DNA of 64,000 nucleotides, taken from contig NZ_CP036164.1 of the NCBI RefSeq assembly GCF_004295485.1, positions 1,922,001 through 1,986,000 of the forward strand, given 5' to 3'. Below, piece by piece: positions 1 to 64,000 of this stretch. Each line of letters opens with the position of its first letter. The first letter of the stretch is position 1. The position numbers and the translations under genes were made by a program. The notes below the pieces were generated by a model. It saw only the letters and a list, made by a program, of their open reading frames with translations, was not told the origin of the DNA and searched no databases. Origin of the DNA: Janibacter limosus. GTDB taxonomy: Bacteria; Actinomycetota; Actinomycetes; Actinomycetales; Dermatophilaceae.

Positions 1-6
1 CGTCGC

Positions 7-396
7 TCACTGCTGGCCCTCGGCCTGCTGCGAGCCCACCGCCCCGAGGTCCAGGTGCGGGCAGTCGCGCCAGAGGCGCTCGAGGTCGTAGAAGTCCTTC
101 TCGTCGTCGTGCTGGCAGTGCACGACGATGTCGCCGAAGTCGAGCAGGACCCAGCGGCCGGGGCCGTGGCCCTCTCGGCGCAGCGTCTTGACGCCCGCCT
201 CCTCGCGCAGGGTGTCCTCGACCGCCTCGGAGATCGCCTGCACCTGGCGCTCGTTGTCGGCGGAGACGATGACGAAGATGTCGGTGAGGGGCATCTGCCC
301 GGACACGTCGAGTCCGGTGATGGTCGTCGCGAGCTTGTCGGCCGCCGCGCGGGCGGCGGTGGTCGCAAGGTCGAGGGCGTGCTGGGTGGCTACCAC
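7..396 (-). CDS. rsfS: Ribosomal silencing factor RsfS
   Basis: This 129-residue protein matches the RsfS/Iojap family in length and sequence. RsfS binds ribosomal protein L14 on the 50S subunit and blocks subunit joining when nutrients are scarce. The family signature region is visible (MPLTDIFVIVSADN near residue 35, GRWVLLDFGDIVVH near residue 81). Translation starts at GTG (396). The gene lies 10 bases downstream of nadD, the usual actinobacterial order, so the two are probably cotranscribed from the small membrane-protein gene upstream. The C-terminal tail is Gln-rich and looks disordered. The assignment is secure; the exact start is slightly less so. Confidence 0.95.
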   Translation of the reverse strand: MVATQHALDLATTAARAAADKLATTITGLDVSGQMPLTDIFVIVSADNERQVQAISEAVEDTLREEAGVKTLRREGHGPGRWVLLDFGDIVVHCQHDDEKDFYDLERLWRDCPHLDLGAVGSQQAEGQQ

Positions 397-406
397 GGTG
401 TGTCGG

Positions 407-1661: not shown

Positions 1662-2927
1662 TCAGCCGCGGATCTGCCCGTCGCCCTCCACGACCCACTT
1701 CGTAGTGGTCAGCTCCGGCAGCGCCATCGGGCCGCGGGCGTGCAGCTTTTGCGTCGAGATGCCGATCTCCGCACCGAAGCCGAACTCGCCACCGTCGGTG
1801 AAGCGCGTGGAGGCGTTGACCATCACGGCCGCCGCATCGACCTCGGCGGTCCAGCGGCGAGCGGCGCCGCGGTCCTCCGTGACGATCGCCTCGGTGTGGC
1901 CCGAGCCGTGCCGGCGCACGTGCTCCATGGCCGCGTCGATGTCGTCGACGACCGCGACCGACATCTGCAGGTCCAGGTACTCCGCGTCGAAGTCCTCGTC
2001 GGTCGCCGGGAGGACCTCGATCCCCTCGGTGGCCAGCTGCGCGGTCGCGGGGTCACCGTGCAGGACGACGCCCGCGCCGGCGAGCTCGGCCAGGGCCTTG
2101 GGCAGGAACTGCTCGGCGACCTCACGGTGCACGAGCAGGGACTCCGCCGAGTTGCACACGCTCGGGCGGTGGGTCTTGGAGTTGACCGTGATGGCCAGCG
2201 CCTTGCCGAGGTCCGCCGCCGCATCGACGTAGACGTGGCAGTTGCCCACGCCCGTCTCGATGACCGGGACGGTCGACTCGAGCACGACGGCCCGGATCAG
2301 GCCCGCTCCCCCGCGCGGGATGAGCAGGTCGACGAGCCCGCGGGCGGTCATCAGCGCGGTCACCGCGTCGTGGCCGCCCTCCAGGAGCTGGACGGCGTCC
2401 TGCGGCAGCCCCTGCGCCGCGAGCGCCGAGCGCAGCGTGTCGACGAGGGTCCGGTTGGTGCTCGCCGCGGCGGAGCCGCCGCGCAGGATCATCGCGTTGC
2501 CGGACTTCAGCCCCAGCCCGGCAGCGTCGACGGTGACATTGGGCCGGGCCTCGTAGATCATCCCGATGACGCCCATCGGCACCCGGACCTGGCGGATCTG
2601 CAGCCCATTGGCCAGCGTCGAGCCGCGCACGACCTCCCCCACCGGATCGGGCAGGCCGGCCACGTCCCGCAGGGCCTGCGCCACGGCGGCCACGCGGTCT
2701 GCGTCGAGGGCGAGGCGGTCGAGGAGGCCGGCGGCCATCCCCCCTTCGCGTCCCCGCTGCAGGTCCTCGGCGTTGGCCGCGACGACCCGGTCGGTGGCTG
2801 CGTCGACGGCGTCGGCGAGCGCCAGGAGCGCGGCGTCCTTGTCGGCGCGGGTCAGCAGGGCGAGGTGGCGGGAGGCGGTGCGGGCCCGCTGCGCGAGGTC
2901 CCGGACGACGGCGGTGCTGTCACTCAT
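1662..2927 (-). CDS. proA: Gamma-glutamyl phosphate reductase ProA
   Basis: ProA reduces gamma-glutamyl phosphate to glutamate semialdehyde with NADPH, the second step of proline synthesis. The 421-residue length fits the family, and the catalytic cysteine lies in the [10 protein letters not shown] motif in the middle of the protein; the [11 protein letters not shown] motif is near the C-terminus. A GTG lies at 2933, but a TACCCT -10 box (2934-2939) ends six bases before the ATG at 2927, which favours a leaderless ATG start. proB, its pathway partner, is separated from it by the oppositely oriented pdxY, so the usual proB-proA adjacency has been broken by insertion of that gene. Confidence 0.96.
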
Positions 2928-2933
2928 GGCCAC

Positions 2934-6494: not shown

Positions 6495-6530
6495 GCGAAG
6501 GGGGCAGGTCAGCGGACCCGCCCCCTTCGC
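6495..6530 (-). terminator. Hairpin between rpmA and obgE built from two inverted CGAAGGGGG motifs
   Basis: Perfect 11-base arms (6495-6505 and 6520-6530) enclose a second four-base stem (GGTC/GACC). Each arm contains one copy of the window's over-represented CGAAGGGGG motif, in opposite orientation. It lies 17 bases beyond the rpmA stop and would end or attenuate rplU-rpmA transcription before obgE. Confidence 0.7.
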
Positions 6531-7286: not shown

Positions 7287-7310
7287 AACGCTGGCCGAAG
7301 GGGGGTGCGC

Positions 7311-10076: not shown

Positions 10077-13000
10077 TCAGGCCTGCGGCGGACCGGCCTG
10101 CGACGTCACCCGCTTGCGCTTGGGACGGGCCGGAGCAGCCGGCTCGGGGTCGGCCACCGGGGTGGTCGGGGCCTCGCCCGACTCCCCCGCCACCTTGGTG
10201 ATCGGGGCAGCCGGCGTCTCGACGGGGGCCGTGAGATCCACCGGCGTCAGCGCGACCGGCGCACCGGCGCTCGAGGCGGCGCGACGGCCACCACGACGAC
10301 GCTTCGGGGCCTCCGGCTCCGGCTCCGGCTCGGTCTCCAGCGCGGGCTCCGGCTCCGGCGTTGCTGCCTCGACCGGCTCCGGTGCCACCTCGGGCTCGGG
10401 CTCGGTGGCCGGGGTCAGGTCGACCGGCTCCAGGGCCACCGGGGCGCCGGCGCTCGAGGCGGCGCGACGGCCACCACGACGACGCTTCGGGGCCTCCGGC
10501 TCCGGTGCCGTCGCCTCCTCGGGCGCCGGCTCCTCGACCACGGGCTGGTCGAGCGCGGGGACCTCGAGCTCGGCGACATCGTCCTCGCCGGGCTCCCCCG
10601 AGATGTTCTTGATCGCAGCGGCGTGGGCCGCCGCAGCGATCTGGGCCGCGGTGCGGCCGTTGGCGTCGGTGGTCTCCTCGACGGGCTCCTGACGCTGCTG
10701 GGAGGAGTCGGACTCTCCCTTCGACCGGCCACGACGGGACCTGCCGCCGCCGTTGCCGTTGCCGCCGCCACTACCGCCGTGGTTGCCCCCCGCGTGACCG
10801 CCCGGGTCGTGGTGGACGGGCTCGCTGTGCACGATGATGCCGCGGCCCTGGCAGTGCTCGCACTCCTCGCTGAAGACCTCGATGAGTCCGGCCCCGACCC
10901 GCTTGCGGGTCATCTGGACCAGGCCGAGCGAGGTCACCTCGGCGACCTGGTGCTTGGTGCGGTCGCGTCCCAGGCACTCCAGGAGGCGACGCACGACCAG
11001 GTCGCGGTTGGCCTCCAAGACCATGTCGATGAAGTCGACGACGATGATGCCGCCGATGTCGCGCAGCCGCAGCTGACGCACGATCTCCTCGGCCGCCTCG
11101 AGGTTGTTCTTGGTGACCGTCTCCTCGAGGTTGCCCCCGGAGCCGATGAACTTGCCGGTGTTGACGTCGACGACGGTCATCGCCTCGGTGCGGTCGATGA
11201 CGAGCGAGCCACCCGAGGGCAGCCAGACCTTGCGGTCCATCGCCTTGGAGATCCCCTCGTCGACCCGGTGCGCGCCGAAGACGTCACCCTCACCGGTCCA
11301 CTGCTCGAGCCTGTCGGACAGGTCCGGGGCCACGGCGTCGACATAGCCCTTGATCTCGCGCCAGGCGCTCTCGCCCGAGACGACCATCGAGGCGAAGTCC
11401 TCGTTGAAGATGTCGCGGATGACCCGGACGGTCATGTCGGGCTCGGCGTGCAGCAGCACGGGCGCACCGCCGGAGGAGCCCTTCTTGACCTTCTTGGTCT
11501 CGGCCGCCTCGCTGACCTTGTCCCAGGCCTTGGTGAGCCGCTCGACGTCGGCGGTCAGCTCCTTCTCGGAGGCGCCCTCCGCAGCGGTGCGCACGATGAC
11601 ACCGGCGCTGTCGGGGACGACCTGCTTGAGGATCGCCTTCAGCCGCGAGCGCTCGGTGTCCGGGAGCTTTCGGGAGATACCGGTCATGCTGCCCTCGGGC
11701 ACGTAGACCACGTAGCGGCCCGGCAGGGAGATCTGCGAGGTCAGGCGCGCACCCTTGTGACCGACCGGGTCCTTGGTGACCTGGACGAGGACCGAGTCGC
11801 CGGCCGACATGGCGTTCTCGATGCGACGGGCCTGGCCGTTGCCGACGCCCTGCGCCTCCCAGTTGACCTCACCGGCGTAGAGCACGGCGTTGCGGCCCTT
11901 GCCGATGTCGATGAAGGCGGCCTCCATGCTCGGCAGCACGTTTTGCACCCGACCGAGGTAGACATTGCCGACCAGGGTCGACGTCGTCTCACGGGAGACA
12001 TAGTGCTCGGCGAGCACGCCGTCCTCGAGGACCGCGATCTGGGTGCGCTCGCCCTGCTGGCGCACGACCATGACGCGCTCGACGCTCTCGCGGCGGGCGA
12101 GGAACTCGGCCTCGGTGATGATCGTGCGGCGACGACCCTGCTCTCGGCCCTCGCGGCGACGCTGCTTCTTGGCCTCGAGGCGGGTGCTGCCCTTGATCGA
12201 CTGCACCTCGTCGCGGCGCGACTCGCGCACGCGGGTCGTGGTGCCGGGCGGGTCCTCCTGCCGGCTGCCGCCGTTGTTGTTGCCGCCACCGCTGCCACCA
12301 CGCCGACGACGCCGGCGACGACGCGAGCTCGAGCCGCCGTCGTCGTCGGAGTCGTCGCTGTCGTCGGAGTCGTCCTCGGCGGAGGTGTCGTCGGCGTCGG
12401 AGTCGTCGGTGGGCTCGTCCTGCTGCTTGTTGCCCCGACCCCGACCGCGGCCACGACCCCGGTTGCGGCTGCTGCCGCCGCCGTTGTTGCCGTTGCCCGA
12501 GCCCTCGTCGGAGGAGTCGTCGTCCGAGGTGTCGGACGAGGTGTCATCGCTCGAGGAGTCGCTGTCACTCGAGGAGGCGTCGCTCGAGGTGGTGTCACTC
12601 GAGGAGGCGTCGCCGGACGCGGCGGAGCCGTCATCGGAGGAGTCCGTCGAGCGGTTGTTGCTGTTGCGGCCCCGGCCACCACGACGACGGCGACGGCGGC
12701 CCCCTTCGCCCTGGGTGTTGTCGTCGTCGCTGGACTCGCTGGAGTCGCTGGAGTCGTTGCTCTCGTCGCGCTCGCTGCGGTCGTCGCGATCGTTGCGGTC
12801 GTCGCGATCATTGCGGTCGTCGCGATCATTGCGGTCGTCGCGATCATTGCGGTCGCTGCCACGCTCGTCGCGCGTGTCGACGTCGTCCTCGTAGGAGTCC
12901 TCGTCCGCAGGCTCCGGCTCTGGGGCTCGGCGGCGCGGCGGCGCGGCGACGGTCGTCGGCGGCTGGAAGAGCAGTCCGAAGGACGGCACGGCCGCGACCG

Positions 13001-13979: not shown

Positions 13980-14065
13980 GGCGACAAGGGTAGGTGCTCC
14001 CCCTTCGCCCCTCGCCGGGGGTGGATGCCGACGCGCGGGTCATTCGTCCGCGCGCATACCTCCAC

Positions 14066-16939: not shown

Positions 16940-16997
16940 GAGAGGCATTGTCCCCCTTCGTCGTTGACGGAGGGGGCAGGGTCTCGCAGTGCGGGTG

Positions 16998-17183: not shown

Positions 17184-17245
17184 GCCCCTGCTCCCCTGCT
17201 CGGTGACGTCGGGCTCAGCCTGTCACGAGCGGGGAGCGAAGGGGG

Positions 17246-24369: not shown

Positions 24370-24821
24370 GCCTCGGACGAAGGGGGCGGCTGCTCCCCTT
24401 CGTCGTCCTTGGTGCGGTACGGGTCGGCGTCGCCGGCGGGCGTGGCCCCGGAGCGGGAGCGGGCCAGGTCCTCGTCGCGCTCGCGGGCCGACCGGAGCAG
24501 GTCGTCGATGTGCGAGGCGTTCTCCGGGACACCGTCCGGGAGGATCTCCAGGGTCGGGGTGAGCCGGATGCCGAGCTGCTTGCCCACGAAGGAGCGCAGC
24601 TTGCCCCGGTTGGCCTCGAGGACCTGGGCGCTGCGCTCACGCTGCGCCTCGTCACCGAAGACCGTGTAGAAGACGGATGCGTTCTGCAGGTCACCCGTGA
24701 CGCGCACATCGGTGATCGTCACGAACCCGAGGTCGGGGTCCTTGACGATCTGCTGCAGGTTGGCTGCGATGAGCTCCTGGATGCGATCGGCGATCTTGCG
24801 GGCGCGGGCCGGGTCGGCCAT
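24366..24821 (-). CDS. rbfA: Ribosome-binding factor RbfA
   Basis: RbfA is a 30S maturation factor. The 151-residue protein shows the family core (ARKIADRIQELIAANL, GFVTITDVRVTGDLQNA). The C-terminal 30 residues are acidic and poorly conserved; their coding DNA contains an inverted pair of the CGAAGGGG motif (24376-24385 and 24395-24404) immediately before truB, which could form a hairpin in the mRNA. In related genomes rbfA follows infB directly; here two DUF4190 genes intervene. Confidence 0.93.
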   Translation of the reverse strand: MADPARARKIADRIQELIAANLQQIVKDPDLGFVTITDVRVTGDLQNASVFYTVFGDEAQRERSAQVLEANRGKLRSFVGKQLGIRLTPTLEILPDGVPENASHIDDLLRSARERDEDLARSRSGATPAGDADPYRTKDDEGEQPPPSSEA

Positions 24822-25989: not shown

Positions 25990-26114
25990 GATCGCTCCCC
26001 TTGATGTCGATGATGCGGTCAGGCACACCCTAATGCGAGGGCACCTCCCTTCTCCGTATTGGGCGGAGGGGAGGACTCCCCGATCTCGCCGCACCTCACC
26101 GGGCCCATGACGAA

Positions 26115-26147
26115 GGGGGACGAGCAGCGTGTCGCTGCCCGTCCCCC
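26115..26147 (-). terminator. Hairpin terminator after infB
   Basis: Fifteen-base arms (26115-26129 and 26133-26147) pair with one mismatch around a TGT loop, 33 bases beyond the infB stop. The lower arm begins with a CGAAGGGGG motif (26111-26119). Confidence 0.7.
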
Positions 26148-33038: not shown

Positions 33039-33084
33039 GTCGACGCGTGGCTGGCTGCCCCGGCTGCCCCCCTTCGAGCCCGGC

Positions 33085-34091: not shown

Positions 34092-34152
34092 CGTCGTCGC
34101 TACGGCTCAGGAGCGGCCCGAGTTCTCCACAGGGCGCGAAGGGGGCGGAGCC

Positions 34153-34214: not shown

Positions 34215-34275
34215 AGCGCCCACAACGCTGCCGGGCACCCCCCTTCGTCCTTGGTGCAGGTGAGAGCGTGGGGGC

Positions 34276-36242
<1,967 letters not shown>

Positions 36243-50743: not shown

Positions 50744-51880
50744 GTGAGCATCCCTTCGTCATCCCGCAGCGGCGCTGACCGCTGCCCGGGGCTGCTCACC
50801 CCCTTCATCTCGGCGGACGGTGCGATGGTGCGGCTCAGGCTGCCGGGCGGTCGCGTCGACGCCGCGACGGTGCGCGCAATCTCTTCTCTCGCAGTCAGAT
50901 TCGGCGACCCGGACATCACACTGACCTCACGCGGCAGCCTGCAGCTGCGCGGCCTGCCCGACCCGCTCCCCCGCGAGCTGGTCACCGCCATCGGTGACCT
51001 CGGCCTCGTCCCGTCGGGTGAGCACGACAAGGCCCGCAACATCGTCGCGGACCCCGACGAATCGCTCGATGACCTGGTGGAGGCCCTGGACGAGGCCCTC
51101 CTTGCGGACCCGGCCCTGGCCGGGCTGCCGGGACGCTTCCTCCTCGCGGTCGCGCGGCCCGGCGGTCCCGTGCTCGGAGAGCCGTGGGACATCGCCGTCG
51201 TGGACGAAGGGGGTTCGGTCCGCGTCCTCGTGGGCGACCACGGTGTCGTCGTCCCTCGCGACGGTGCGGCACGGACCGCTCTCGACGTCGCCCGTCGCTT
51301 CCTGGCCGTCCGCCCCGATGCCAAGACATGGAATGTGCGCGACCTGCCCGCCGCTGCCCGGGGGTCCCTGCTGCCGGAGGGGACCCCCTTCGTCGTGGAG
51401 GCCGAGGCGCCACCGCTCCCCGGGCCGGACGGGGATTACCTCGTGGCGCTCGTGCCGCTCGGGCTGCTGACGCCGCGGATGGCCGCGGCCCTCACCACGC
51501 TTCGAGGCTCGTCGCAGGGCTCCTCGCACCTCAGCGAGCGTCTCGTGATCACCCCCTGGCGCTCGATCGTGGTCCGGGGCGGGGCGGGCCTCGCCGACGA
51601 CCTGGCCGCGGCCGGGTTCGCCACCGCGCCAGACTCCCCCTGGACCGTCCTGACCGCCTGCGCCGGGGCCCCCGCGTGCGCGCGGACCACCACCTCCACC
51701 CGCGACCTCGCGCGGGACGCAGCAGCCTTGGTCGACCCCACTGGACCACCCGTCCACGTCATCGGGTGCGACCGCTCCTGCGGTCACCCCGCCCGAGCAC
51801 ACACCATCTCCCTCAACCCCTCGACCGCGGCTGATGTCGTTGCCGCGCAACGCTCTCCGATCACCGAAAGGTCCTCATGA
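50744..51880 (+). CDS. cobG: Precorrin-3B synthase CobG
   Basis: CobG is the oxygen-dependent monooxygenase that makes precorrin-3B, a marker of the aerobic pathway. The 378-residue protein has the nitrite/sulfite reductase half-domain (ITLTSRGSLQLRGLP near residue 58) and the cysteines for an iron-sulfur cluster in the C-terminal region: CAGAPAC near residue 305 and CDRSC near residue 345. Start GTG 50744 is supported by the -10 box eight bases upstream. The stop overlaps cobH (ATGA). Confidence 0.92.
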   Translation: MSIPSSSRSGADRCPGLLTPFISADGAMVRLRLPGGRVDAATVRAISSLAVRFGDPDITLTSRGSLQLRGLPDPLPRELVTAIGDLGLVPSGEHDKARNIVADPDESLDDLVEALDEALLADPALAGLPGRFLLAVARPGGPVLGEPWDIAVVDEGGSVRVLVGDHGVVVPRDGAARTALDVARRFLAVRPDAKTWNVRDLPAAARGSLLPEGTPFVVEAEAPPLPGPDGDYLVALVPLGLLTPRMAAALTTLRGSSQGSSHLSERLVITPWRSIVVRGGAGLADDLAAAGFATAPDSPWTVLTACAGAPACARTTTSTRDLARDAAALVDPTGPPVHVIGCDRSCGHPARAHTISLNPSTAADVVAAQRSPITERSS

Positions 51881-52545
51881 CCTCCCTTCGCCAGCCGCCC
51901 AGTCGCTACGACTACGTCACCGACGGCCAGGAGATCTACCGCCGGTCCTTCGGCATGATCCGTGACGAGGCCGACCTGTCCGGGCTGCCCACGGACCTCC
52001 ACGGCGCGGCCGTGCGGATCATCCACGCCGCCGGTGACGTCGCGATCACGAGCGAGATCGCCGGGCACCCGCAGGTCGCCGCCGCCGCGCACGCCGCCCT
52101 CCTCGCCGGCGCGCCCGTCCTCACCGACAGCAACATGCTCGCCTCCGGCGTCACCCGCCGGCGCCTGCCCGCCGACAACGAGGTCATCTGCACCCTGCGC
52201 GACGAGCGCGTGCCGGCTCTGGCCGCCGAGTGGGACACCACCCGCGCCGCCGCTGCCGTCTCTCTGTGGGGCGAGCGTCTCGAGGGCTCCGTCGTCGCGA
52301 TCGGCAATGCCCCCACCGCGCTCTTCCACCTGCTCGAGATGCTCCAGGACGGGGCCCCACGACCGGCCGCGATCGTCGGGATGCCCGTGGGCTTCGTCGG
52401 CTCGGCGGAGTCCAAGACCGCTCTGGCAGAGCACGACCTGCCCGGTGGGTCGATCCCCTGGCTGGTCGTCCACGGCCGCCGCGGCGGCTCCGCCATGGCC
52501 GCAGCCGCGCTCAACGCGCTGGCAAACCCGGACGAGCTGGCATGA
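51877..52545 (+). CDS. cobH: Precorrin-8X methylmutase CobH
   Basis: CobH moves a methyl group from C-11 to C-12, giving hydrogenobyrinate. The 222-residue protein has the catalytic His in VRIIHAAGDVA near residue 48, the TDSNMLASGVTRRRL motif and GMPVGFVGSAESK near residue 170. It overlaps cobG upstream and cobIJ downstream by four bases each, so three proteins of ring modification are translated as one coupled unit. Confidence 0.96.
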   Translation: MTSLRQPPSRYDYVTDGQEIYRRSFGMIRDEADLSGLPTDLHGAAVRIIHAAGDVAITSEIAGHPQVAAAAHAALLAGAPVLTDSNMLASGVTRRRLPADNEVICTLRDERVPALAAEWDTTRAAAAVSLWGERLEGSVVAIGNAPTALFHLLEMLQDGAPRPAAIVGMPVGFVGSAESKTALAEHDLPGGSIPWLVVHGRRGGSAMAAAALNALANPDELA

Positions 52546-54113
52546 GTGCCCCCACGAGCACCGGCCGCTTCTACGGTGTGGGCATCGGCCCCGGCGACCC
52601 CGAGCTGATCACCCTCAAGGCGGCCCGGCTCATCCGTGACGCCGACGTCATCGCCTACCACTCCGGCGTCGGCAAGCAGTCCATGGCGCGGGGGATCGCC
52701 GCGGACCTCATCCCCGAGGGCGTCCTCGAGGAGGAGCTGCGCTACCCCGTGACGACCGGGATGACCGACCACCCGGGCGGCTACTACGGAGCGCTGGCCG
52801 AGTTCTACGACGAGTGCTCCGCCCGGCTCGAGGCCCACCTGTCCCAGGGCCGGACCGTCGTCGTGCTCGCCGTCGGTGACCCGCTCTTCTTCGGCTCCTT
52901 CATGTACGTCCACGACCGGTTGAGCCCCCGCTATCCCACCGAGGTCGTCCCCGGCATCACGGCGATGTCAGCGGCCACCGCCGCGGTCGCGACCGGCCTG
53001 TGCCGGCACGAGGACACCCTCACCGTGCTGCCCGGGACCCTGCCCGTGCCCGAGCTCGCCCGGCGGCTCGCCGACACCGACGCGGCGGTCATCATGAAGC
53101 TCGGCCGCACCTTTGCCGGGGTCCGTGAGGCCCTGCGTCAGGCGGGGGTCCTCGACCGGGCCGTCTATGTCGAGCGCGCCTCTGGCACAGGCGAGGTCGT
53201 CGTGCCGGCAGCCGACGTCGACGAGGGGCGCGTGCCCTACATGTCCATCGTCGTCGTGCCCGGCGCCGACCTGCGGGACGACGCCGCCGGCCGGGCCGCG
53301 GACTTCGCCCGGATCACGGCCGCGCACGAGGCGCCGACTCCCGACGACTCGGCTCCCCGGGACACCACGGGCACCGTGCACGTCGTCGGTCTCGGTCCCG
53401 GCCCGGACCGCTGGCTCACCCCCGAGGCATCCGAGGTCCTGGCCCGCGTCGACCACGTCGTCGGCTACGCGCCGTACGTCGCCCGGGTGCCGCAGCGCGA
53501 GGGGCTGACCCGCCACGCCTCCGGCAACACCGTCGAGCTCGACCGTGGCCGGCTGGCCCTCGACCTGGCGAAGGGGGGCGACGACGTCGCGATCGTCTCC
53601 GGCGGCGACGCGGGGGTCTTCGGAATGGCGACCGCGATCTTCGAGTCGCGTGAGAGCGCGCTGGCTGACGACGCCGGGTACGCGGACGTGCCCGTCCGCG
53701 TCGTGCCCGGGGTCACCGCAGCGCATGCTGCCAGCGCCCTCGTCGGTGCCGTGCTCGGCGGCGACCACGCGCTGGTCAACCTCAGCGACAACCTCAAGCC
53801 GTGGCAGGTCCTCGCCGACCGGCTCACCGCTCTCGCCACCAACGACATCTCGGTCGCGCTCTACAACCCCCGCTCGGCCTCGCGCCCGGACACCCTGGGA
53901 CGCGCTCGTGACCTGCTCGTCGAGGCGGTCGGCCCGACGCGGGTCGTCGTCGTCGCGCGTCACGTCGGACGGGACCAGGAGTCGGTCGTCGTGACGACCC
54001 TCGGCGAGCTCGACGTCGATTCCGTCGACATGGGCTGCCTCGTCGTCATCGGGGCGTCCACCACCCGTGCGACGGGCGACGGACGGGTCTGGACGCCGCG
54101 TTCGGTGGGCTGA
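52542..54113 (+). CDS. cobIJ: Fused precorrin-2 C20- and precorrin-3B C17-methyltransferase CobIJ
   Basis: The 523-residue protein contains two tetrapyrrole methylases. Residues about 8-250 are CobI (YGVGIGPGDPELITLKA, LAVGDPLFFGSFMYV, VVPGITAMSAATA). Residues about 275-523 are CobJ (VHVVGLGPGPDRWLTPEA, VSGGDAGVFGMATAIFE, NPRSASRPDTLG). The fusion is known in actinobacteria and would keep unstable intermediates together, although CobG acts between the two steps. ATG 52542 overlaps cobH. A palindromic repeat begins two bases after the stop. Confidence 0.95.
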   Translation: MSAPTSTGRFYGVGIGPGDPELITLKAARLIRDADVIAYHSGVGKQSMARGIAADLIPEGVLEEELRYPVTTGMTDHPGGYYGALAEFYDECSARLEAHLSQGRTVVVLAVGDPLFFGSFMYVHDRLSPRYPTEVVPGITAMSAATAAVATGLCRHEDTLTVLPGTLPVPELARRLADTDAAVIMKLGRTFAGVREALRQAGVLDRAVYVERASGTGEVVVPAADVDEGRVPYMSIVVVPGADLRDDAAGRAADFARITAAHEAPTPDDSAPRDTTGTVHVVGLGPGPDRWLTPEASEVLARVDHVVGYAPYVARVPQREGLTRHASGNTVELDRGRLALDLAKGGDDVAIVSGGDAGVFGMATAIFESRESALADDAGYADVPVRVVPGVTAAHAASALVGAVLGGDHALVNLSDNLKPWQVLADRLTALATNDISVALYNPRSASRPDTLGRARDLLVEAVGPTRVVVVARHVGRDQESVVVTTLGELDVDSVDMGCLVVIGASTTRATGDGRVWTPRSVG

Positions 54114-54202: not shown

Positions 54203-54760
54203 TCAGACCCAGAAGGGCGCCGGTCCTGCCGGCGCATCCGCACGGGGCGAAGGGAGCCGGGTCCCGTCTCCCCACCCCTTCGCCCAGTCCGGGACGGCCG
54301 AGGGAGGCGGGTCGATGCCGAGCAGCTGCCACAGGCGGTCGGGGTCGACGCCCTTGCCCTTGCGCAGGAAGCGCATCCGCACCAGGGCCTGGGCGCAGAC
54401 CTGGCCGTCGACGACGAACCGCTGCTCGTAGTAGACGCTGATCCGGTCCCAGCCGGCGAGTGCGCTGTGCAGCTCGTAGGCCTGCAGCGGCTGCAGCGAG
54501 GTGCGGAAGGTCATCGTCTCCTGCATGACGACCGGCGAGACGCGGTGACGCACCTGCGCACGCAACCACCCGGAGCGGATCGCGAGGTCGATCCGACCGA
54601 GGTCGGCCATCGTGAAGTAGACGCCGTTGTTCATGTGCCCGGCGAAGTCGATGTCGTTGGGCAGCACCCGCAGCGGGAGCACGGCGTGCTCGGTGGGGCC
54701 GACCCGGCCACGGCGGCGGGCGGTCGCCGCGGTCCAGACGACGCGAAGGATCTTGTTCAC
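54203..54760 (-). CDS. Hot-dog fold acyl-CoA thioesterase-like protein
   Basis: This 185-residue protein has the 4HBT/THEM6-type motif VLPNDIDFAGHMNNGVYFTMADLGR near residue 33 with the catalytic-type Asp, followed by the beta-strand pattern of a single hot-dog domain (MTFRTSLQPLQAYELH, YYEQRFVVDGQVCAQALVRM). It probably hydrolyses an acyl-CoA, substrate unknown. The last 35 residues are Pro-rich. Start GTG 54760 gives VNKILRVVWT; the gene interrupts the cobalamin region with no obvious connection to it. Confidence 0.85.
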   Translation of the reverse strand: MNKILRVVWTAATARRRGRVGPTEHAVLPLRVLPNDIDFAGHMNNGVYFTMADLGRIDLAIRSGWLRAQVRHRVSPVVMQETMTFRTSLQPLQAYELHSALAGWDRISVYYEQRFVVDGQVCAQALVRMRFLRKGKGVDPDRLWQLLGIDPPPSAVPDWAKGWGDGTRLPSPRADAPAGPAPFWV

Positions 54761-57578: not shown

Positions 57579-58792
57579 GAGGTGCCCTTCGTCGTGGCGA
57601 GCTGGACGACGGCACGCGCCGGCGTCCAGGACAGGAAGCGTCCGAGCGTGACGGCGTGCTCGACGGACAGCCGGGTGAGCTCACCCCCGGCTCGGTTGTG
57701 GGTGGCGATGAGGGCCGACTCCCCTTCGAGGGTGACGGCATGGGCGACGAGGCGGCCGCCGGGGCGAAGGGAGGTCCACGTCCGCTCGAGCAGGTCGACG
57801 TCGAGTCCCCCGCCGACGAAGACCGCCTCGGCGTCGGGGAGCCCGGCGAGGTCGGTCGTCGTGGTGTCGCCGACGACGACCTCGACGCGTCCGGCCAGTC
57901 CGAGGGCCGCAGCGTTGGCGGTGATGCGTGCGGCACGCTCGGGGTCGCGCTCGACGCAGGTGGCCGTGGCCCGGTCCGCGGCGAGGCACCACTCGAGGGC
58001 CACCGAGCCGTTGCCGGCCCCGAGGTCCCACAGGTGGGCGCCGGGTGTGGGACGCAGCCGCGCCAGTGCCGAGGCCCGCACGTCGCGCTTGGTCAGCTGC
58101 CCGTCGTGGTCGATGAAGCTCTCGGGCCGCCCTGGAGCCGTCCCGGCGGTCCGCGACGAGCGGACCGGATCGTCGGCCCTGGCCTCGACGCAGACGACGA
58201 CGAGGTCCGCGGTGGTCGCGGTGAACTCGTGCGCGGGGTGGGCCAGCGCGCCTTCGTCCGATCCGCCCAGGTGCCAGCGTGCAGTGAGCAGGCTTGTCCC
58301 CCAACCGCGTTCGGACAGCAGAGTCGCCAGTCGTGCGGGCCCATCGCCGTCGGAGCAGAGCACGACGAGGCGGGCGCCCGGCGTGAGGTGGGGCAGGACC
58401 GCGCGCAGGTCACGACCGACAGCGGTCACCACGACGGTCTCCTCGGCGGACCAACCCTGCCGGGCCCGAGCGAGGACGTCGCTGCCGACGGCCGGGTGGA
58501 TCCGTACCCGGTCGGCCCCGAGGAGCTCCACGAGCGTGGTCCCGATACCGGAGCGCAGCGGGTCGCCGCTGGCGATCACCACCGCGTCCCCGACCCGGTC
58601 GAGCAAGGCGGGCAGGGCAGCGCGAAGGGGGCTGGGCCAGCGCACCATCTCGGCCCCGGCAGCGACGTGGTCGGCCACGAGATCGAGGTGACGTTGCCCG
58701 CCGATGACGGTGGCGGCACGCTCGACGAGGCCGCGCCGCCCGTCGTCCAGGCCGGCCCAACCATCGTCTGCGATACCCACCACGTCGATCAC
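57575..58792 (-). CDS. cobL: Precorrin-6B C5,15-methyltransferase (decarboxylating) CobL
   Basis: CobL methylates C-5 and C-15 and decarboxylates the C-12 acetate. The 405-residue protein joins a CbiE-like half (VVGIADDGWAGL, VIASGDPLRSGIGTTL near residue 78) and a CbiT-like half (LWDLGAGNGSVALEW near residue 250, VFVGGGLDVDLLERTW). Start GTG 58792 is supported by a TATGGT -10 box eight bases upstream. Its upstream substrate supplier, the reductase CobK, is not in the window. Confidence 0.94.
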   Translation of the reverse strand: MIDVVGIADDGWAGLDDGRRGLVERAATVIGGQRHLDLVADHVAAGAEMVRWPSPLRAALPALLDRVGDAVVIASGDPLRSGIGTTLVELLGADRVRIHPAVGSDVLARARQGWSAEETVVVTAVGRDLRAVLPHLTPGARLVVLCSDGDGPARLATLLSERGWGTSLLTARWHLGGSDEGALAHPAHEFTATTADLVVVCVEARADDPVRSSRTAGTAPGRPESFIDHDGQLTKRDVRASALARLRPTPGAHLWDLGAGNGSVALEWCLAADRATATCVERDPERAARITANAAALGLAGRVEVVVGDTTTTDLAGLPDAEAVFVGGGLDVDLLERTWTSLRPGGRLVAHAVTLEGESALIATHNRAGGELTRLSVEHAVTLGRFLSWTPARAVVQLATTKGTS

Positions 58793-58992: not shown

Positions 58993-61086
58993 GTGACTGC
59001 TCCGGTCTTCCCCTTCACCGCCCTCGTCGGCTCCGACGAGCTGATCACCGCACTGCTGCTCAGCGCGATCTCCCCCGAGATCGGCGGCGTCCTCGTCCGC
59101 GGCGAGAAGGGCACCGCGAAGTCGACCGCGGTCCGCGCCCTCGCCGCGGTGCTGCCCGAGCAGCAGGTCGCGCTCTCCTGCCGATTCGGCTGCGACCCCG
59201 AGCGTGCCGATGACTGCCCCGACGGCCCGCACACGGGGCCGGCGACCACCCGCCCCGCTCGTCTGGTCGAGCTGCCCGTCGGTGCCACCGAGGACCGCGT
59301 CGTCGGCTCGCTCGACCTGCGCCGTGCTCTCGGCGAGGGCGAGGCGGCCTACCAGCCGGGCCTGCTCGCGGACGCCCATCGCGGCATCCTCTACGTCGAC
59401 GAGGTCAACCTGCTGCACGACCACCTCGTCGACGTGCTCCTCGACGCGGCCGCCATGGGACGCAACACCGTCGAGCGCGACGGCGTCTCGATCTCGCACC
59501 CCGCCAGGATCACCCTCGTCGGCACGATGAACCCCGAGGAGGGCGAGCTGCGGCCCCAGCTGCTCGACCGATTCGGCCTGACCGTCCACGTCGCCGCGAG
59601 CCGTGACCCGCACGTGCGGGCCGAGGTCGTGCGGCGCCGGCTCGCGGCCGACCTCGACCCGGCCGGCTTCGCCGCCGGCTATGCCGCGTCCGAGGCCCAG
59701 CTCACCGAGCGGCTCGCCGCGGCCCGCGAGAGCGTGGCGCGCATCCGGCTCGAGGACGTGACCCTGCGGACCATCGCCCGGGTGTGCGCCGGCTTCGACG
59801 TCGACGGCATGCGCGCCGACATCGTCACCGCGCGCACGGCCGCGGCCCACGCCGCCTGGGCCGGACGCGAGCACGTGACCCGTGAGGACATCCGGGCCGC
59901 CGCGCTCCTGTCGCTCCCCCACCGTCGGCGGCGGGCCCCCTTCGACGCTCCCGGTCTCGACGAGGACCTGCTCGACCGGTTGCTCGACGAGGAGCCCGAG
60001 CCGGAGCCGCCGGTGCCACCGACTGGTGGGGATGACAGCGACGGCGATGTCGATGGCGCCTCCCCTGACGAGTCCGGACCGGGTGACGGCGCGCAGGAGG
60101 AGGGTCGGTCCGGCGACTCCCGTCCTGCTCCACCGGATGGGTCAGCGGACGACCGCGGCGAGTCGCCCACCACAGCCCCCGATGACCCATCACGAGGAGC
60201 AGAACCGGAGCGGGCGGAAGTGCCCGACACCAGCCCTTCAGGGGCGTCTGCCCCCGCTGCCACGGCCATCGCCAGCACCCCCTACCGCGCCCGTCGCCTC
60301 GAGCTCTCCGGCGTCGGCTCCGGACCGACCGGGCGCCGCTCCCCCGCTCTCACCCCGCGCGGTCGCGTCGTCGGTGTCCACCCCGCCGGCAACGAACCGG
60401 CAGGTGCTCCGGTCCACCTGACCGCCACCCTTCGCGCCTCTGCGGCTCGTCGAGCGGCCCGCACCGGGCCGGCCCGCGTGACCGGCGACGACCTGCGCCA
60501 TGCCGTCACCCGCGGCCGCGAGGCCAACCTCGTGCTGCTCGCCGTCGACGCCTCCGGCTCGATGGCCGCCCGCAAGCGGATGGGCGAGGTCAAGACCGCC
60601 GTCCTGTCGTTGCTCCTGGACGCCTACCAGCGCCGCGACCGGGTGGGGCTGGTGACCTTCCGCGGGAGCGGCGCCGAGGTCGCCCTGCCGCCCACCTCGT
60701 CGGTGGACGCGGCCGCGGCGCGCCTGGCCGAGCTGCCCCACGGCGGACGGACGCCGCTCGCGGAAGGCCTCACGCAGGTCGCCAGAGTCGTTGCGAGAGA
60801 GCGCATCCGCGACCGCAACCAGCGCGCGCTCGTCATCATCGTCACCGATGGCCGGGCCACCGCAGGACCCGATGCCCTCGCGCGCGCCCAGCACATCGCA
60901 GACGCGTGGGGGCACACCGCGGACACCGTCGTCGTCGACTGCGAGTCCGGCCGCTTCCGCATGGGGCTGGCCGCGGACCTCGCCCACCGGATGGGCGCCG
61001 AGCACATCGCCCTCGAGCAGGTCGCCGCGAGCGGCCTCGTCGAGATCGTCACCGACCGCACCGGCCCACGAAGGAGCGCTGCCTGA
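58993..61086 (+). CDS. ChlI/ChlD-type cobaltochelatase subunit (putative)
   Basis: The 697-residue protein fuses an AAA+ ATPase like BchI/ChlI (Walker A GEKGTAKST near residue 39, Walker B GILYVDEVNLL, sensor ITLVGTMNPEEGELRPQLLDR) to a C-terminal von Willebrand A domain (LLAVDASGSMAARKRMGE near residue 517, the DxSxS metal site) through an acidic, Pro-rich linker of about 100 residues. In actinobacteria this protein replaces CobS/CobT as the ATPase partner of CobN. Start GTG 58993 follows the riboswitch. The stop overlaps cobO by one base (TGATG). Confidence 0.92.
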   Translation: MTAPVFPFTALVGSDELITALLLSAISPEIGGVLVRGEKGTAKSTAVRALAAVLPEQQVALSCRFGCDPERADDCPDGPHTGPATTRPARLVELPVGATEDRVVGSLDLRRALGEGEAAYQPGLLADAHRGILYVDEVNLLHDHLVDVLLDAAAMGRNTVERDGVSISHPARITLVGTMNPEEGELRPQLLDRFGLTVHVAASRDPHVRAEVVRRRLAADLDPAGFAAGYAASEAQLTERLAAARESVARIRLEDVTLRTIARVCAGFDVDGMRADIVTARTAAAHAAWAGREHVTREDIRAAALLSLPHRRRRAPFDAPGLDEDLLDRLLDEEPEPEPPVPPTGGDDSDGDVDGASPDESGPGDGAQEEGRSGDSRPAPPDGSADDRGESPTTAPDDPSRGAEPERAEVPDTSPSGASAPAATAIASTPYRARRLELSGVGSGPTGRRSPALTPRGRVVGVHPAGNEPAGAPVHLTATLRASAARRAARTGPARVTGDDLRHAVTRGREANLVLLAVDASGSMAARKRMGEVKTAVLSLLLDAYQRRDRVGLVTFRGSGAEVALPPTSSVDAAAARLAELPHGGRTPLAEGLTQVARVVARERIRDRNQRALVIIVTDGRATAGPDALARAQHIADAWGHTADTVVVDCESGRFRMGLAADLAHRMGAEHIALEQVAASGLVEIVTDRTGPRRSAA

Positions 61087-61700
61087 TGGCACAGGGACAG
61101 ACCCCCGTCACCCCCCAGGACGGACTCACCACGCGGCAGCGCCGCAACCGCCCGCTCGTGGTCGTCCACGGCGGCACCGGCAAGGGCAAGTCGACGGCCG
61201 CCTTCGGTCTGGCCCTGCGCGGCTGGAACCAGGGCTGGGCGATCGGCGTCTTCCAGTTCGTCAAGTCCGCCAAGTGGCGCATCGGCGAGGAGGAGGTCTA
61301 CAAGACCCTCGGCCGTGTCCACGAGGAGACCGGCGAAGGGGGCCCGGTCGAGTGGCACAAGATGGGCTCCGGCTGGTCGTGGTCACGCAAGGTCGGCAGC
61401 GAGGAGGACCACGCCGCCGACGCCCGCGAGGGCTGGGCGGAGATCAAGCGTCGCCTCGCCGAGGAGACCCACACCGTCTACGTCCTCGACGAGTTCACCT
61501 ATGTCATGAAGTGGGGCTGGGTCGAGCTCGACGACGTCATCGACACGCTCACCAACCGCCCCGGCTACCAGCACGTCATCATCACCGGCCGTGACCCGCA
61601 CCCGCGGCTGCTCGAGATCGCCGACGTGGCAACCGAGATGACGAAGATCAAGCATCCCTTCGACCAGGGGCAGAAGGGCCAGAAGGGCATCGAATGGTGA
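61086..61700 (+). CDS. cobO: Cob(I)yrinic acid a,c-diamide adenosyltransferase CobO
   Basis: CobO adds the upper adenosyl ligand. The 204-residue protein has the P-loop HGGTGKGKSTAAFGLALR near residue 27, FQFVKSAKWRIGEE, and the C-terminal EMTKIKHPFDQG that is diagnostic of the CobO/BtuR family. It is coupled by one-base overlap to the chelatase gene and its stop overlaps the start of cobB-cobC by seven bases. Confidence 0.96.
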   Translation: MAQGQTPVTPQDGLTTRQRRNRPLVVVHGGTGKGKSTAAFGLALRGWNQGWAIGVFQFVKSAKWRIGEEEVYKTLGRVHEETGEGGPVEWHKMGSGWSWSRKVGSEEDHAADAREGWAEIKRRLAEETHTVYVLDEFTYVMKWGWVELDDVIDTLTNRPGYQHVIITGRDPHPRLLEIADVATEMTKIKHPFDQGQKGQKGIEW

Positions 61701-64000
61701 CCCTCCCCCGGGTGCTCGTCGCGGCCCCCGCCTCGGGCCACGGCAAGACCACGATCGCCGTCGGGATCATGGCGGCCCTCTCCCGCCGCGGGCTCACCGT
61801 CGCCCCGGCCAAGGTCGGCCCCGACTACATCGACCCGGGCTACCACGCCCTGGCGACCGGACGACCCAGCCGCACCCTGGACCCGTGGCTCGTGGGCGAA
61901 GGGAGGGTCGCCCCCCTCCTCGTGCGCGGCGCGACCCACCCGACGGTGGCCGACATCGCGGTCCTCGAGGGCGTCATGGGCCTGATGGACGGGCGCCTCG
62001 GGACCGACGGCTTCGCCTCGAGCGCGCACGTCGCCGCCCTGACCCGCACCCCCGTCGTGCTCGTCGTCGACGTCAGCTCGACCTCGCGGACGGTGGCCGC
62101 GACCGTCCACGGCCTGGCGACCATCGACCCCGCTCTCTCCGTCGTCGGGGTGGTGCTCAACAAGGCCGGCACCCCGCGCCACGGCGACGAGGCCCGCCGC
62201 GCGGTCGAGTCCGTCGGCGTCCCCGTCTGGGGTGTCCTGCCGCGCGACGCCGCCATGCACGTGCCCTCGCGCCACCTCGGGCTCGTGCCCGCCGCCGAGC
62301 GCGCCGAGGCCGCCGCGACCCTGGACCACATCGCCGCCGTCGCCGAGGAGCACCTCGACCTCGACGGACTGCTCGCCGCCGCGGCGTCGGCCCCCACGCT
62401 CGACGCCGAGCCGTGGGACCCGACCGCCGCCCTCACGCTCCCTGCCCTTCGAGACGGCGCTGGCGCGCCTCCTCAGGACCCGGAGCTTGCGCAGCAAGCG
62501 TCTCGAAGGGACTCCCCCGTCATCGCGGTCGCCGGCGGACGCGCCTTCACCTTCCGCTACCCCGAGACCGTCGAGCTGCTCGAGGCGGCCGGCGCACGGG
62601 TCGTCGAGCTCGACCCGGCCCGTGACGTCGCCCTGCCCGACGGCACCCGGGGCCTCTACCTCGGAGGTGGCTTCCCCGAGGTCCACGCGCGGACGCTGGC
62701 GACCAACCGCCCACTCGTGCACCAGATCAAGGCCGCCATCGAGGCCGGCATGCCCACCATCGCCGAGTGCGCAGGGATGCTCTACCTCGCCGAGACCCTC
62801 GACGACCACCCCATGGTCGGCGCCCTGCCCGCGCACACCGCGATGGGTCGGCGACTGACCCTCGGCTACCGCGAGGCGACCTCACTCGTGGACTCGGTCC
62901 TCGGCCCTGCCGGCACCCGGGTCACGGGCCACGAGTTCCACCGCACGGCCACCGAGCCCTCCGCCGGCACGCCCGCCGCGTGGTCGCTCGACGGCCGCGA
63001 GGAGGGCTTCGCCCTCGACCCCGCCGGCACCGGCCGGGCGACGCTCGTCGCGTCCTACCTGCACACCCACTGGGCCGGGTCCCCGTCGGTCGCTGCCTCC
63101 TTCGTCGACGCCGCGGCTTCGCACGTGCACCCCGGGTCGCCGGATCACCCGCGTGGCTGGGACGGCCGCGGACCGGGAGGGGTGGCCCTAGGGGCTTCGC
63201 ACGTGCGCCCCGGGATGTCGGAGTCCTCGCGTGATCGTTCGCAACCGGCTCAGCCCTTGAGTCGGGCCACCCGCACCCGATCCGCGTCCTCGGCGGACGT
63301 GGTCGACCCCCTTCGTCACCATGGGGATCTTGAGGTCGCTGCCGACCTCGTCGACCTGGCGGTCAACGTGCGGCTGACGCAACCGCCCGCGTGGTTGGCT
63401 GCTGCCCTCGTCGACGAGCTGTCCTCTGTGGCTGCATATCCCGACCCGACGACGGCTCGGGATGCCCTGGCCGCTCGGCACGGGCTGGCGCGGGCGCAGG
63501 TGCTGCCGACGAGCGGTGGGGCCGAGGCCTTCACGCTGCTCGCCCGGGCGCTGGCACCACGCGACGCCGTCGTCGTGCACCCGCAGTTCACCGAGCCGGA
63601 GGCCGCACTGCGAGCCGCCGGTCACGAGGTGCGCCGGGTACTGCTGCGACCCGAGGACGGCTTCGCCCTCACCGCTGGCGCGCTCGAGCAGATCGGCGAC
63701 GCCGACCTCGTCGTCATCGGCAACCCGACCAACCCGACGGGCGTGCTCCACCCGGCCGACGCCATCCGCTCGCTCGTGCGACCGGGGCGGGTCGTGCTCG
63801 TGGACGAGGCCTTCATCGACGCCGTCCCCGGCGAGCGCGAGTCGCTCCTGACCGGCGACCTCGACGGCCTGCTCGTCGTGCGCTCCCTCACCAAGACCTG
63901 GGCCGTGGCCGGCATCCGCGCCGGCTACCTCGCCGGCGACCCCGACCTGGTCGCCGCTCTCGCGGCCCACCAACCCCACTGGTCGGTCGGCTCGCTCGCG
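61694..64000 (+). CDS. cobB: CobB cobyrinate a,c-diamide synthase fused to CobC-like PLP enzyme (runs off the window)
   Basis: From ATG 61694 one frame stays open for 769 codons to the right edge. Residues 1-245 are the ATP-binding half of CobB (VAAPASGHGKTTIAVGI, KVGPDYIDPGYH). Residues 274-475 are its glutamine amidotransferase half, with GGGFPEVHA, nucleophile Cys in IAECAGMLYL and SYLHTHW. From about residue 536 the sequence is a Rv2231c/CobC-type aminotransferase-fold domain (LVDLAVNVRL, LPTSGGAEAF, NPTNPTGVLHP, PLP Lys in SLTKTWAVAGIRAGY), which in cobalamin synthesis supplies aminopropanol phosphate or its attachment. Two repeat elements lie in frame in linkers (residues 251-272 and 496-526). 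A separate CobC start at GTG 63299 cannot be excluded. Confidence 0.88.
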   Translation, partial: MVTLPRVLVAAPASGHGKTTIAVGIMAALSRRGLTVAPAKVGPDYIDPGYHALATGRPSRTLDPWLVGEGRVAPLLVRGATHPTVADIAVLEGVMGLMDGRLGTDGFASSAHVAALTRTPVVLVVDVSSTSRTVAATVHGLATIDPALSVVGVVLNKAGTPRHGDEARRAVESVGVPVWGVLPRDAAMHVPSRHLGLVPAAERAEAAATLDHIAAVAEEHLDLDGLLAAAASAPTLDAEPWDPTAALTLPALRDGAGAPPQDPELAQQASRRDSPVIAVAGGRAFTFRYPETVELLEAAGARVVELDPARDVALPDGTRGLYLGGGFPEVHARTLATNRPLVHQIKAAIEAGMPTIAECAGMLYLAETLDDHPMVGALPAHTAMGRRLTLGYREATSLVDSVLGPAGTRVTGHEFHRTATEPSAGTPAAWSLDGREEGFALDPAGTGRATLVASYLHTHWAGSPSVAASFVDAAASHVHPGSPDHPRGWDGRGPGGVALGASHVRPGMSESSRDRSQPAQPLSRATRTRSASSADVVDPLRHHGDLEVAADLVDLAVNVRLTQPPAWLAAALVDELSSVAAYPDPTTARDALAARHGLARAQVLPTSGGAEAFTLLARALAPRDAVVVHPQFTEPEAALRAAGHEVRRVLLRPEDGFALTAGALEQIGDADLVVIGNPTNPTGVLHPADAIRSLVRPGRVVLVDEAFIDAVPGERESLLTGDLDGLLVVRSLTKTWAVAGIRAGYLAGDPDLVAALAAHQPHWSVGSLA
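62445..62510. repeat. 66-bp palindromic element in frame in cobB
   Basis: Twelve-base perfect arms CCCTTCGAGACG and its complement (62445-62456 and 62499-62510) flank an imperfectly paired centre. The element is exactly 22 codons long and sits between the two CobB domains, encoding a Gln/Ala/Pro-rich linker. From memory, elements with CCTTCGAGACG termini are widespread intergenic repeats in actinobacteria. Confidence 0.8.
63180..63272. repeat. 93-bp palindromic element in the cobB-cobC linker
   Basis: Nine-base perfect arms GGGTGGCCC/GGGCCACCC flank a centre starting TAGG and ending TTGAGTC, with TCGTTCG inside, as in the element at 19285-19356. One stem pair differs between the two copies by a compensatory C-G to G-C exchange. 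It is 31 codons long and keeps the frame. Confidence 0.75.

Follow-up and report, generated by a model that had tools for sequence, protein, structure and literature searches.

The window analysed here is a 64,000-nt stretch of the Janibacter chromosome, whose genome (hereafter the own genome) measures 3.55 Mb. Within the window, the 8-mer CGAAGGGG occurs 47 times (27 plus, 20 minus) against an order-3 Markov expectation of 6.9, and the 9-mer CGAAGGGGG occurs 34 times (19 plus, 15 minus) against 1.7; CGAAGGGGG is the top 9-mer of the window by z under this model. An earlier note on this DNA had reported about 46 copies of the 8-mer (26 and 20 by strand), about 34 of which extend to the 9-mer, and had called the word strongly over-represented, and our recount agrees on each point. 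The extent given for the motif did not hold, since its full form is wider, GRCGAAGGG(G/A)G, and 46 sites in the window match CGAAGGGRG.

Independent gene calls on the window were used to classify these sites, and copies were found in coding and non-coding DNA on both strands, as the note had described. Intergenic copies of CGAAGGGGG are located on the plus strand at 6496..6504 (arm 1 of a hairpin between rpmA and obg), 7296..7304, 17237..17245, 25201..25209, 26111..26119 and 34137..34145, and on the minus strand at 6521..6529 (arm 2 of the same hairpin), 13999..14007, 16952..16960, 33068..33076, 34239..34247 and 46868..46876. Coding copies of CGAAGGGGG on the plus strand are found at 14677..14685, 22233..22241, 24378..24386, 38988..38996, 45473..45481, 48091..48099, 53569..53577 and 58623..58631, and, in a GAA-GGG frame, at 32207..32215, 35178..35186, 42915..42923, 51205..51213 and 61334..61342; those on the minus strand are at 2740..2748, 12700..12708 (ribonuclease E/G gene), 22448..22456, 36060..36068, 43229..43237, 50233..50241, 51384..51392, 59936..59944 and 63307..63315. 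The variant CGAAGGGAG lies in coding DNA at 30132..30140, 33538..33546, 49374..49382, 54248..54256, 57765..57773 and 61897..61905 (plus), and at 10715..10723 (ribonuclease E/G gene), 32672..32680, 38526..38534, 40397..40405, 48334..48342 and 51882..51890 (minus).

The enrichment holds for the whole genome, in which CGAAGGGGG was counted 1,479 times (746 and 733 by strand), against 28 times (17 and 11) for the same word read backward. CGAAGGGRG reaches 2,365 copies in 3.55 Mb (1,185 and 1,180 by strand). The wider form of the motif is borne out by CGAAGGGAG, observed 120 times against 12.3 expected under an order-4 Markov model. The limits of the word are sharp, with one purine position tolerated, and no conserved flanking tracts were seen around it. 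When one-mismatch words in coding DNA were compared with synonymous shuffles, no general surplus was found: there were 200 against 261 when CGAAGGGAG, CGAAGGGGA and CGAAGGGGT were left out and 358 against 286 when they were included, and among these words first-base variants alone were in excess (26 against 11.8). An equal enrichment of all GAAGGG-like words, the outcome that would have spoken for simple codon bias, was not seen.

Selection at the codon level, also claimed in the earlier note, is borne out by the coding copies. There were 126 coding copies of the word against 20.7 in synonymous shuffles, 64 in sense and 62 in antisense orientation. GAA supplies just 335 of 8,127 Glu codons (4.1%) in a 464 kb sample of this genome, and the dicodon GAA-GGG, for which single-codon frequencies predict 6.9 occurrences, was counted there 83 times; the gene calls placed all five sites singled out earlier (32207, 35178, 42915, 51205 and 61334) in this frame. 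The copies are also conserved, 96 of 120 being kept in orthologs against 26.6 expected.

The density of CGAAGGGGG is 1.18 per kb between genes versus 0.305 per kb within them. In the own sample of 484 kb, sites are most crowded where neighbouring genes converge (25 in 9.07 kb), and among pairs less than 60 bp apart 17 of 27 face each other as hairpin arms. Close pairs face likewise in 20 of 21 cases in seven other Janibacter samples, counts that are not independent because the samples cover mostly one homologous region, and in 7 of 10 cases in a second genus (g59). Folding predictions for five of six listed facing pairs gave a hairpin every time (z -2.7 to -8.4). The inverted pair 6496/6521, which had been read as the rpmA hairpin, indeed sits in the gap that separates rpmA from obg (gene names from NCBIfam) and folds strongly (-37 kcal/mol, z -6.7). 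The other two pairs proposed as inverted repeats are present, but neither has the 9-mer on both arms: 24378/24395 joins a 9-mer to an 8-mer on the minus strand, and 36045/36061 combines an 8-mer on the plus strand (36045) with a 9-mer on the minus strand.

To compare related genera, 159 genomes of the family from 53 genera were surveyed. All 11 Janibacter genomes and all 3 genomes of genus g59 are rich in the word, and 145 of the 159 are near background, so that among the genera sampled it is confined to two. Copy numbers in the Janibacter genomes surveyed run from about one thousand to about two and a half thousand, and in g59 the specificity is shifted at the last two motif positions. A different iterated word, GTATGNCG, is abundant in 88 of the 159 genomes; GTACGNCG, GTATGCGG and others are possibly variants of it. 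For GTATGNCG, three samples were checked for a facing-pair bias; G106 (5 of 21 pairs) and G018 (3 of 9) showed none, and the third, from Knoellia, gave 4 of 5. Janibacter is placed inside the GTATGNCG-bearing clade, joining a GTATGNCG-bearing MAG (L059) with support 0.98, while some adjacent nodes have 0.52-0.77; the word has apparently been switched within a clade that has another iterated word. In the own genome, one 20 kb island carries 1 copy against about 13 expected. It contains copper-related genes, 40% of it is similar to Rhodococcus/Gordonia plasmids, and it looks like acquired DNA.

The search for competence genes, suggested together with the uptake reading, gave a divided answer. 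The own genome encodes ComEA and ComEC and has a tad cluster, and ComEC was detected in 16 of 16 Janibacter genomes. It was also detected in 155 of the 159 family genomes, the four misses being incomplete or highly fragmented, and therefore discriminates nothing; in 9 of the 155 the match is in two or three pieces, and six of these split cases are rich in GTATGNCG (G082, G091, G115, G124, G130 and G185). Since ComEC and T2SSE ATPases are present in relatives with no detectable iterated word as well, nothing tested co-varies with the word. N_methyl (type IV) pilins were found in just 1 of 16 Janibacter genomes with a 27-position profile that may miss members, and therefore no ComP-like receptor is in sight. 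In Neisseria the DUS is read by ComP, a type IV minor pilin (PMC6370729). In the actinobacterium Micrococcus luteus, Flp/Tad pili are needed for natural transformation (PMC4322843; PMC6370729). A Tad pilin is a possible receptor.

Given these results, the explanation we favour, with a confidence somewhat short of even, is that GRCGAAGGGRG may function in the manner of a DNA uptake sequence, as a word on double-stranded DNA that is specific to the lineage and serves self-recognition. A DNA receptor on the surface or envelope of Janibacter, probably part of a Tad/Flp pilus and ComEA/ComEC uptake route, would prefer DNA with the word. Favoured uptake and homologous recombination would then spread copies throughout the core chromosome and keep them there, on either strand, wherever the coding sequence permits, and inverted pairs might serve also as terminators. 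The GTATGNCG of many relatives would be a second dialect, which the Janibacter line has given up for the present word. We infer from this pattern competence in Janibacter, a receptor that recognises the word, maintenance of the word through uptake bias, and a single system served by both words. A broader statement, put a little more tentatively, is that the family may have sequence-specific DNA self-recognition, by Tad-pilus uptake or by recombination, whose dialects share GTATGNCG as the usual word, with Janibacter and g59 having changed over completely to GRCGAAGGGRG. In the literature consulted, sequence-specific DNA uptake belongs to Neisseriaceae and Pasteurellaceae (PMC1939737), and our literature searches found no paper on Janibacter competence and no description of an uptake sequence in a Gram-positive or actinobacterial context. 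If true, and as far as these searches reach, the family would provide the first case of a DUS-like system among Gram-positive bacteria, its receptor being something other than ComP, and with a codon-overriding lineage word in Tad-bearing actinobacteria one could test, in a new phylum, what the receptor is and how dialects arise.

Alternatively, the word may be Chi-like: RecBCD (or AdnAB) would read GRCGAAGGGRG on the 3' strand, stop degrading and load RecA, and the copies would protect and repair the core chromosome. This is less likely than the uptake reading. RecC was found in all 14 word-bearing genomes of the survey and in 15 of 16 Janibacter of a separate set (the missing one is 79% complete), and the G-rich asymmetric form (cf. 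GAAGCGG or GCTGGTGG; PMC8022716), the sharp recognition with one tolerated purine, the conservation and the near-absence from the island all fit. However, many other RecC-bearing genomes lack the word and others have GTATGNCG, the own genome retains AdnAB too, and RecC is unrelated to GTATGNCG once the 14 CGAAGGGRG genomes are excluded (28 rich and 23 poor with RecC, 60 and 34 without it; p 0.37), the association at p 0.015 appearing only with them. Moreover, E. coli Chi is nearly all on the leading strand (PMC8022716), whereas our sample has no polarity, and actinobacterial RecBCD is said to work in single-strand annealing and not homologous recombination (PMC6452273). Even as a recombination word, it would represent a Chi-like motif without polarity that was exchanged for another inside a single family, and the 159 genomes could be used to trace what changed.

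Somewhat less probable still is that some other DNA protein peculiar to the lineage binds or methylates the word, either a nucleoid protein or an orphan methyltransferase as proposed for HIP1, and that the word is kept by selection or biased repair apart from uptake and recombination. Such a protein would account for a sharp word with no general surplus of decayed copies, and a link between iterated words and methyltransferases has been discussed for HIP1 (PMC4390886). Unlike HIP1, though, the Janibacter word is non-palindromic, and its lineage restriction and near-absence from the island fit uptake or recombination equally.

The KOPS and SpoIIIE words have letters similar to the motif, a point for a polar, chromosome-organising motif (KOPS/AIMS-like) guiding FtsK or segregation; the earlier note had named a chromosome-organising or recombination motif as the alternative. 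The polar reading is highly improbable and unsupported because strand polarity is absent from both the genome totals and the 484 kb sample (14% of the genome), in which heterogeneity gave a chi-square of 9.7 with 21 df and, for the 319 sites, the most favourable ori/ter division placed 55.2% on the leading strand against a null mean of 56.1%; the strand counts rule it out unless polarity is confined outside the sampled 14%. That the word arises incidentally from codon use or from an ordinary terminator stem, as the G-rich hairpins and facing pairs might suggest, is just as improbable and is ruled out by the synonymous shuffles, given the coding excess in both orientations, the GAA-GGG excess and the coding location of 229 of the 319 sampled CGAAGGGRG sites.

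Among known systems, HIP1 of cyanobacteria is likewise a short word highly iterated in one bacterial group (PMC4390886), but it is a palindrome (GCGATCGC). Chi, read by RecBCD/AddAB, resembles the Janibacter word as a G-rich, asymmetric, over-represented word, sparse in a young-looking island, and reader-type enzymes are present (RecC in the bearers, AdnAB in the own genome); it differs in its leading-strand polarity, and the Janibacter word also has an intergenic excess, facing pairs and a restriction to two of 53 genera. The USS of Pasteurellaceae (cf. PMC2346458, PMC1939737) has a 9-base core, no strand bias and intergenic enrichment. The Janibacter word is alike in all three, but it is without conserved flanking tracts and its host is Gram-positive. 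From the DUS of Neisseriaceae it differs in its actinobacterial host, in the scarcity of type IV pilins, ComP-like minor pilins included, in lacking a general surplus of one-mismatch copies, which outnumber exact copies in known DUS genomes (PMC3630211), and in that GTATGNCG shares no core with it while Neisseriaceae dialects are mutually similar. The earlier likening to a DUS is partly supported: the pilin search, the one-mismatch counts and the want of a facing-pair bias for GTATGNCG in G106 and G018 speak against it, and the profile speaks for it, with an excess on both strands and no polarity, codon selection, and comEA and comEC present. In further likeness to the DUS, the word is asymmetric and about 10 bases long, its 2,365 CGAAGGGRG copies lie within the 943 to nearly 6,000 DUS copies per genome, and it shares inverted pairs in terminators, a place in permissive parts of the core genome, and lineage dialects (PMC3630211).

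The earlier note had reported from a hand scan that the 8-mer CGAAGGGG and its 9-mer extension CGAAGGGGG are strongly over-represented, and recounting bore this out. The window contains 47 copies of CGAAGGGG (27 and 20 by strand) and 34 of CGAAGGGGG (19 and 15), against 6.9 and 1.7 expected under an order-3 Markov model, and CGAAGGGGG is its top over-represented 9-mer by z. The excess extends to the whole Janibacter limosus chromosome (3,545,254 bases, single contig, with the window at 1,922,001-1,986,000), where CGAAGGGGG occurs 746 + 733 times by strand versus 17 + 11 for the reversed word. Comparison of proB places the genome in Janibacter, its nearest named relatives being three Janibacter records at 90-97% identity. 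To describe the shape of the motif, a 464 kb sample of this chromosome (20 spread stretches plus the window) was compared with order-4 Markov expectations. The results showed 187 copies of CGAAGGGGG (14.7 expected) and 120 of a second 9-mer form, CGAAGGGAG (12.3 expected), which is just as special. Upstream of their shared core, CGAAGGGRG, the adjoining base is preferentially a purine (A 30%, G 44%) and the next is G in 72%, while information in the flanks on both sides of these 11 bases is near background; the true motif is GRCGAAGGGRG. Most one-letter variants in the sample lie near or under expectation; those at the first base and a few others run about twofold above it, and the last base tolerates A (46 vs 13.5 expected) and, less so, T (30 vs 15.1). 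Chromosome-wide, the core occurs 2,365 times versus 35 for its reverse, about one per 1.5 kb.

Selection at the codon level, also proposed in the earlier note, was upheld. Based on an uncurated set of 431 genes from a simple gene caller, the 187 copies of CGAAGGGGG divide into 126 within genes, 60 intergenic and one on a boundary (0.305 per kb in genes vs 1.18 per kb between genes). Synonymous-codon shuffling gave just 20.7 coding copies, and 0.26 in the GAA-GGG frame, where 28 were seen. Although GAA accounts for 4.1% of Glu codons, the pair GAA-GGG turns up 83 times vs 6.9 expected. Coding copies are 64 sense and 62 antisense, which rules out an RNA-level signal; together, the shuffles and antisense copies also rule out a by-product of codon use or of terminators. 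Ten other Janibacter sequences supplied orthologs. At sites with conserved amino acids, these retained the word in 96 of 120 non-independent site-by-genome cases, whereas the behaviour of the same codons elsewhere would predict 26.6; by reading frame, retention ranged from 3/13 to 17/17. Given the shuffle excess, the copies on both coding strands and the ortholog retention, what is maintained is the identity of the DNA, rather than protein or RNA.

A polar, chromosome-organising motif, which the earlier note had offered as an alternative, was ruled out: neither the genome totals nor 319 sites in 484 kb sampled show strand polarity (no departure from 1:1 across stretches; chi-square 9.7 with 21 df), and the best-fitting choice of origin and terminus puts 55.2% of sites on the leading strand, under the null mean of 56.1%. 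Spacing is approximately random (CV 0.92), with some excess of pairs closer than 100 bp (33 vs 21.5 expected). Inverted pairs of the kind noticed earlier can form hairpins. Among 27 pairs less than 60 bp apart, 17 are facing (+-), 6 are -+, 2 ++ and 2 --, and all five facing pairs folded, out of six listed, form hairpins (z -2.7 to -8.4). Intergenic spacers flanked by convergent genes hold 25 sites in 9.07 kb, compared with 17 in 12.7 kb for divergent and 43 in 27.7 kb for co-directional neighbours.

Near the window, genes with orthologs in at least five of seven genomes carry 33 motifs in 52.7 kb, those with orthologs in one to four carry 13 in 18.0 kb, and those with none carry 0 in 6.1 kb (core vs accessory p 0.044, a small sample). 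The poorest of the 21 stretches, at 3,363,001-3,383,000 (L049:1-20000), has one motif vs about 13 expected (p 2.6e-5 for a stretch picked after the fact); the remaining 20 have 0.35-1.00 per kb. It has a lower GC (67.4%), encodes a multicopper oxidase, a MerR regulator, a sensor kinase and complex I/antiporter-like proteins, and is related over 8 kb, at 79%, to plasmids of Rhodococcus and Gordonia. This stretch is probably an acquired island.

Across a first set of 58 genomes, CGAAGGGGG occurs 797-1,860 times in each of the 15 other Janibacter and 5-72 times in each of 42 genomes of other genera. Among 159 sampled family genomes, CGAAGGGRG occurs 894-2,601 times in 11/11 Janibacter and 1,452-2,165 times in 3/3 genomes of a second genus, g59, versus 23-127 in the remaining 145. 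The specificity is shifted in g59, where in a 100 kb sample position eight is almost invariably G and position nine tolerates A or T.

Untargeted word counts covering 15 relatives and named loci, followed by targeted counts, revealed a different, asymmetric word, GTATGNCG, in Knoellia, Pedococcus, Tetrasphaera, Flexivirga, Phycicoccus elongatus and others (L054-L065, L070, L079, L230-L233, L297-L301). It was scarce in two other Phycicoccus loci and Allobranchiibius (0-1 copies in about 21 kb). GTATGNCG is balanced between strands, exceeds 700 copies (a threshold chosen by us) in 88/159 family genomes, peaks at 8,019 in genome G106, whose sampled coding DNA has 154 vs 12.6 in synonymous shuffles, and falls to 41-133 copies in Janibacter and g59. 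Facing bias of its close pairs is present in Knoellia (4/5) and absent in G106 (5/21) and G018 (3/9). In a tree of up to five concatenated proteins (ProB, Obg, L27, L21, ribonuclease E), Janibacter falls among the bearers of GTATGNCG, adjoining the MAG L059 with support 0.98 (some other nodes 0.52-0.77). Since Flexivirga bears GTATGNCG though outside that clade, the simplest reading is that the Janibacter line lost GTATGNCG and gained CGAAGGGRG. Losses within genera were found in G158 of g57 (82 vs 2,408-3,210) and G105 of g47 (68 vs 1,230 and 3,862).

Codon shuffling was used to screen 21 samples of 80-100 kb, of which 43-90 kb was coding. Specific words stood out with strong enrichment in Janibacter, g59, G106, G018, Knoellia, G035 and G055; the remaining 14 samples yielded just weak or codon-like words. 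Because codon-like words also reach high z (CGACGNCG, z 13 in G105), fold enrichment was taken as the guide. GTACGNCG is raised in G105 (L282-L286; 134 vs 46 expected) and falls outside that genome's nine top words, other words ranking higher. CGGATGCCTCG is iterated in G055, of another family (L258-L261; 38 GGATGCCTC in 80 kb, 36 coding), and GTATGCGG in G035 (L210-L213; 26 copies in 80 kb, 23 coding). G030 (L234-L237) has a dispersed repeat of about 20 bases, CGTATGCCGCTGRGCT..., around 26 GTATGCCG in 80 kb, 13 of them intergenic, and G158 (L287-L291) perhaps has GTAG-containing words.

As candidate machinery, the J. limosus genome encodes ComEA (SLBB + HHH), ComEC (Competence + beta-lactamase fold) and a tad cluster, with its T2SSE ATPase confirmed by Pfam and tadB, tadC, flp and tadE-like genes assigned by visual inspection. 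Beside the comEA-comEC region, near 1,902,000 (L161:3-1496), lies a serine recombinase gene, possibly marking where an integrated element ends. ComEC was rejected as a discriminating gene, being nearly universal (155/159 family genomes), and T2SSE ATPases occur in 58/58 genomes, 57 above cut-off; these genes permit an uptake reading without testing it. N_methyl pilins were found in only 1/16 Janibacter. ComEC matches are split into two or three pieces in nine genomes (G082, G085, G091, G115, G124, G125, G130, G175, G185), six of them GTATGNCG-rich; these may reflect assembly errors or breaks, which if real would count against an uptake reading.

Taken together, the ComEC/T2SSE, pilin, RecC and AdnAB results rank a DNA uptake sequence (DUS)-like function of GRCGAAGGGRG first, a Chi-like function second and another reader third, each involving a presumed step from word to reader. 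We adopt the DUS-like function tentatively, as a possibility that falls somewhat short of probable. A non-polar Chi-like function seems unlikely. RecC is present in 14/14 CGAAGGGRG genomes, versus 65/159 family genomes overall, which speaks for it; against it, RecC does not predict GTATGNCG. RecC-positive genomes are GTATGNCG-rich in 28/65 cases vs 60/94 RecC-negative ones (p 0.015), and any simple tie between iterated words and RecC disappears once the 14 CGAAGGGRG genomes are removed (28/51 vs 60/94, p 0.37). Loss of AdnAB in Janibacter driving a Chi switch was rejected, as an adjacent nuclease pair, read off coordinates by eye, occurs in 5/5 Janibacter and 3/3 g59 tested. The J. limosus pair matches the A and B chains of PDB 6ppj/6ppr (titled UvrD/Rep helicase), which we take to be AdnAB. 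Another DNA-binding or modifying reader of the word is doubtful.

The DUS-like function presumes that Janibacter is competent. Counting against this function, GTATGNCG stays below 700 copies in 71/159 family genomes, and 57 of these have neither word in number, yet nearly all have ComEC. No description of the CGAAGGGRG word or GTATGNCG was found in the open-access papers searched, including those on actinobacterial or Gram-positive uptake sequences, Janibacter competence, Chi in Actinobacteria and AdnAB; occurrences of the words' letters were unrelated by title and abstract. One-mismatch coding words number 358 vs 286 expected with the three tolerated forms included, and 200 vs 261 with them left out. 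The Janibacter word thus has no general one-mismatch excess, whereas in known DUS genomes, according to PMC3630211, one-mismatch copies outnumber exact ones.
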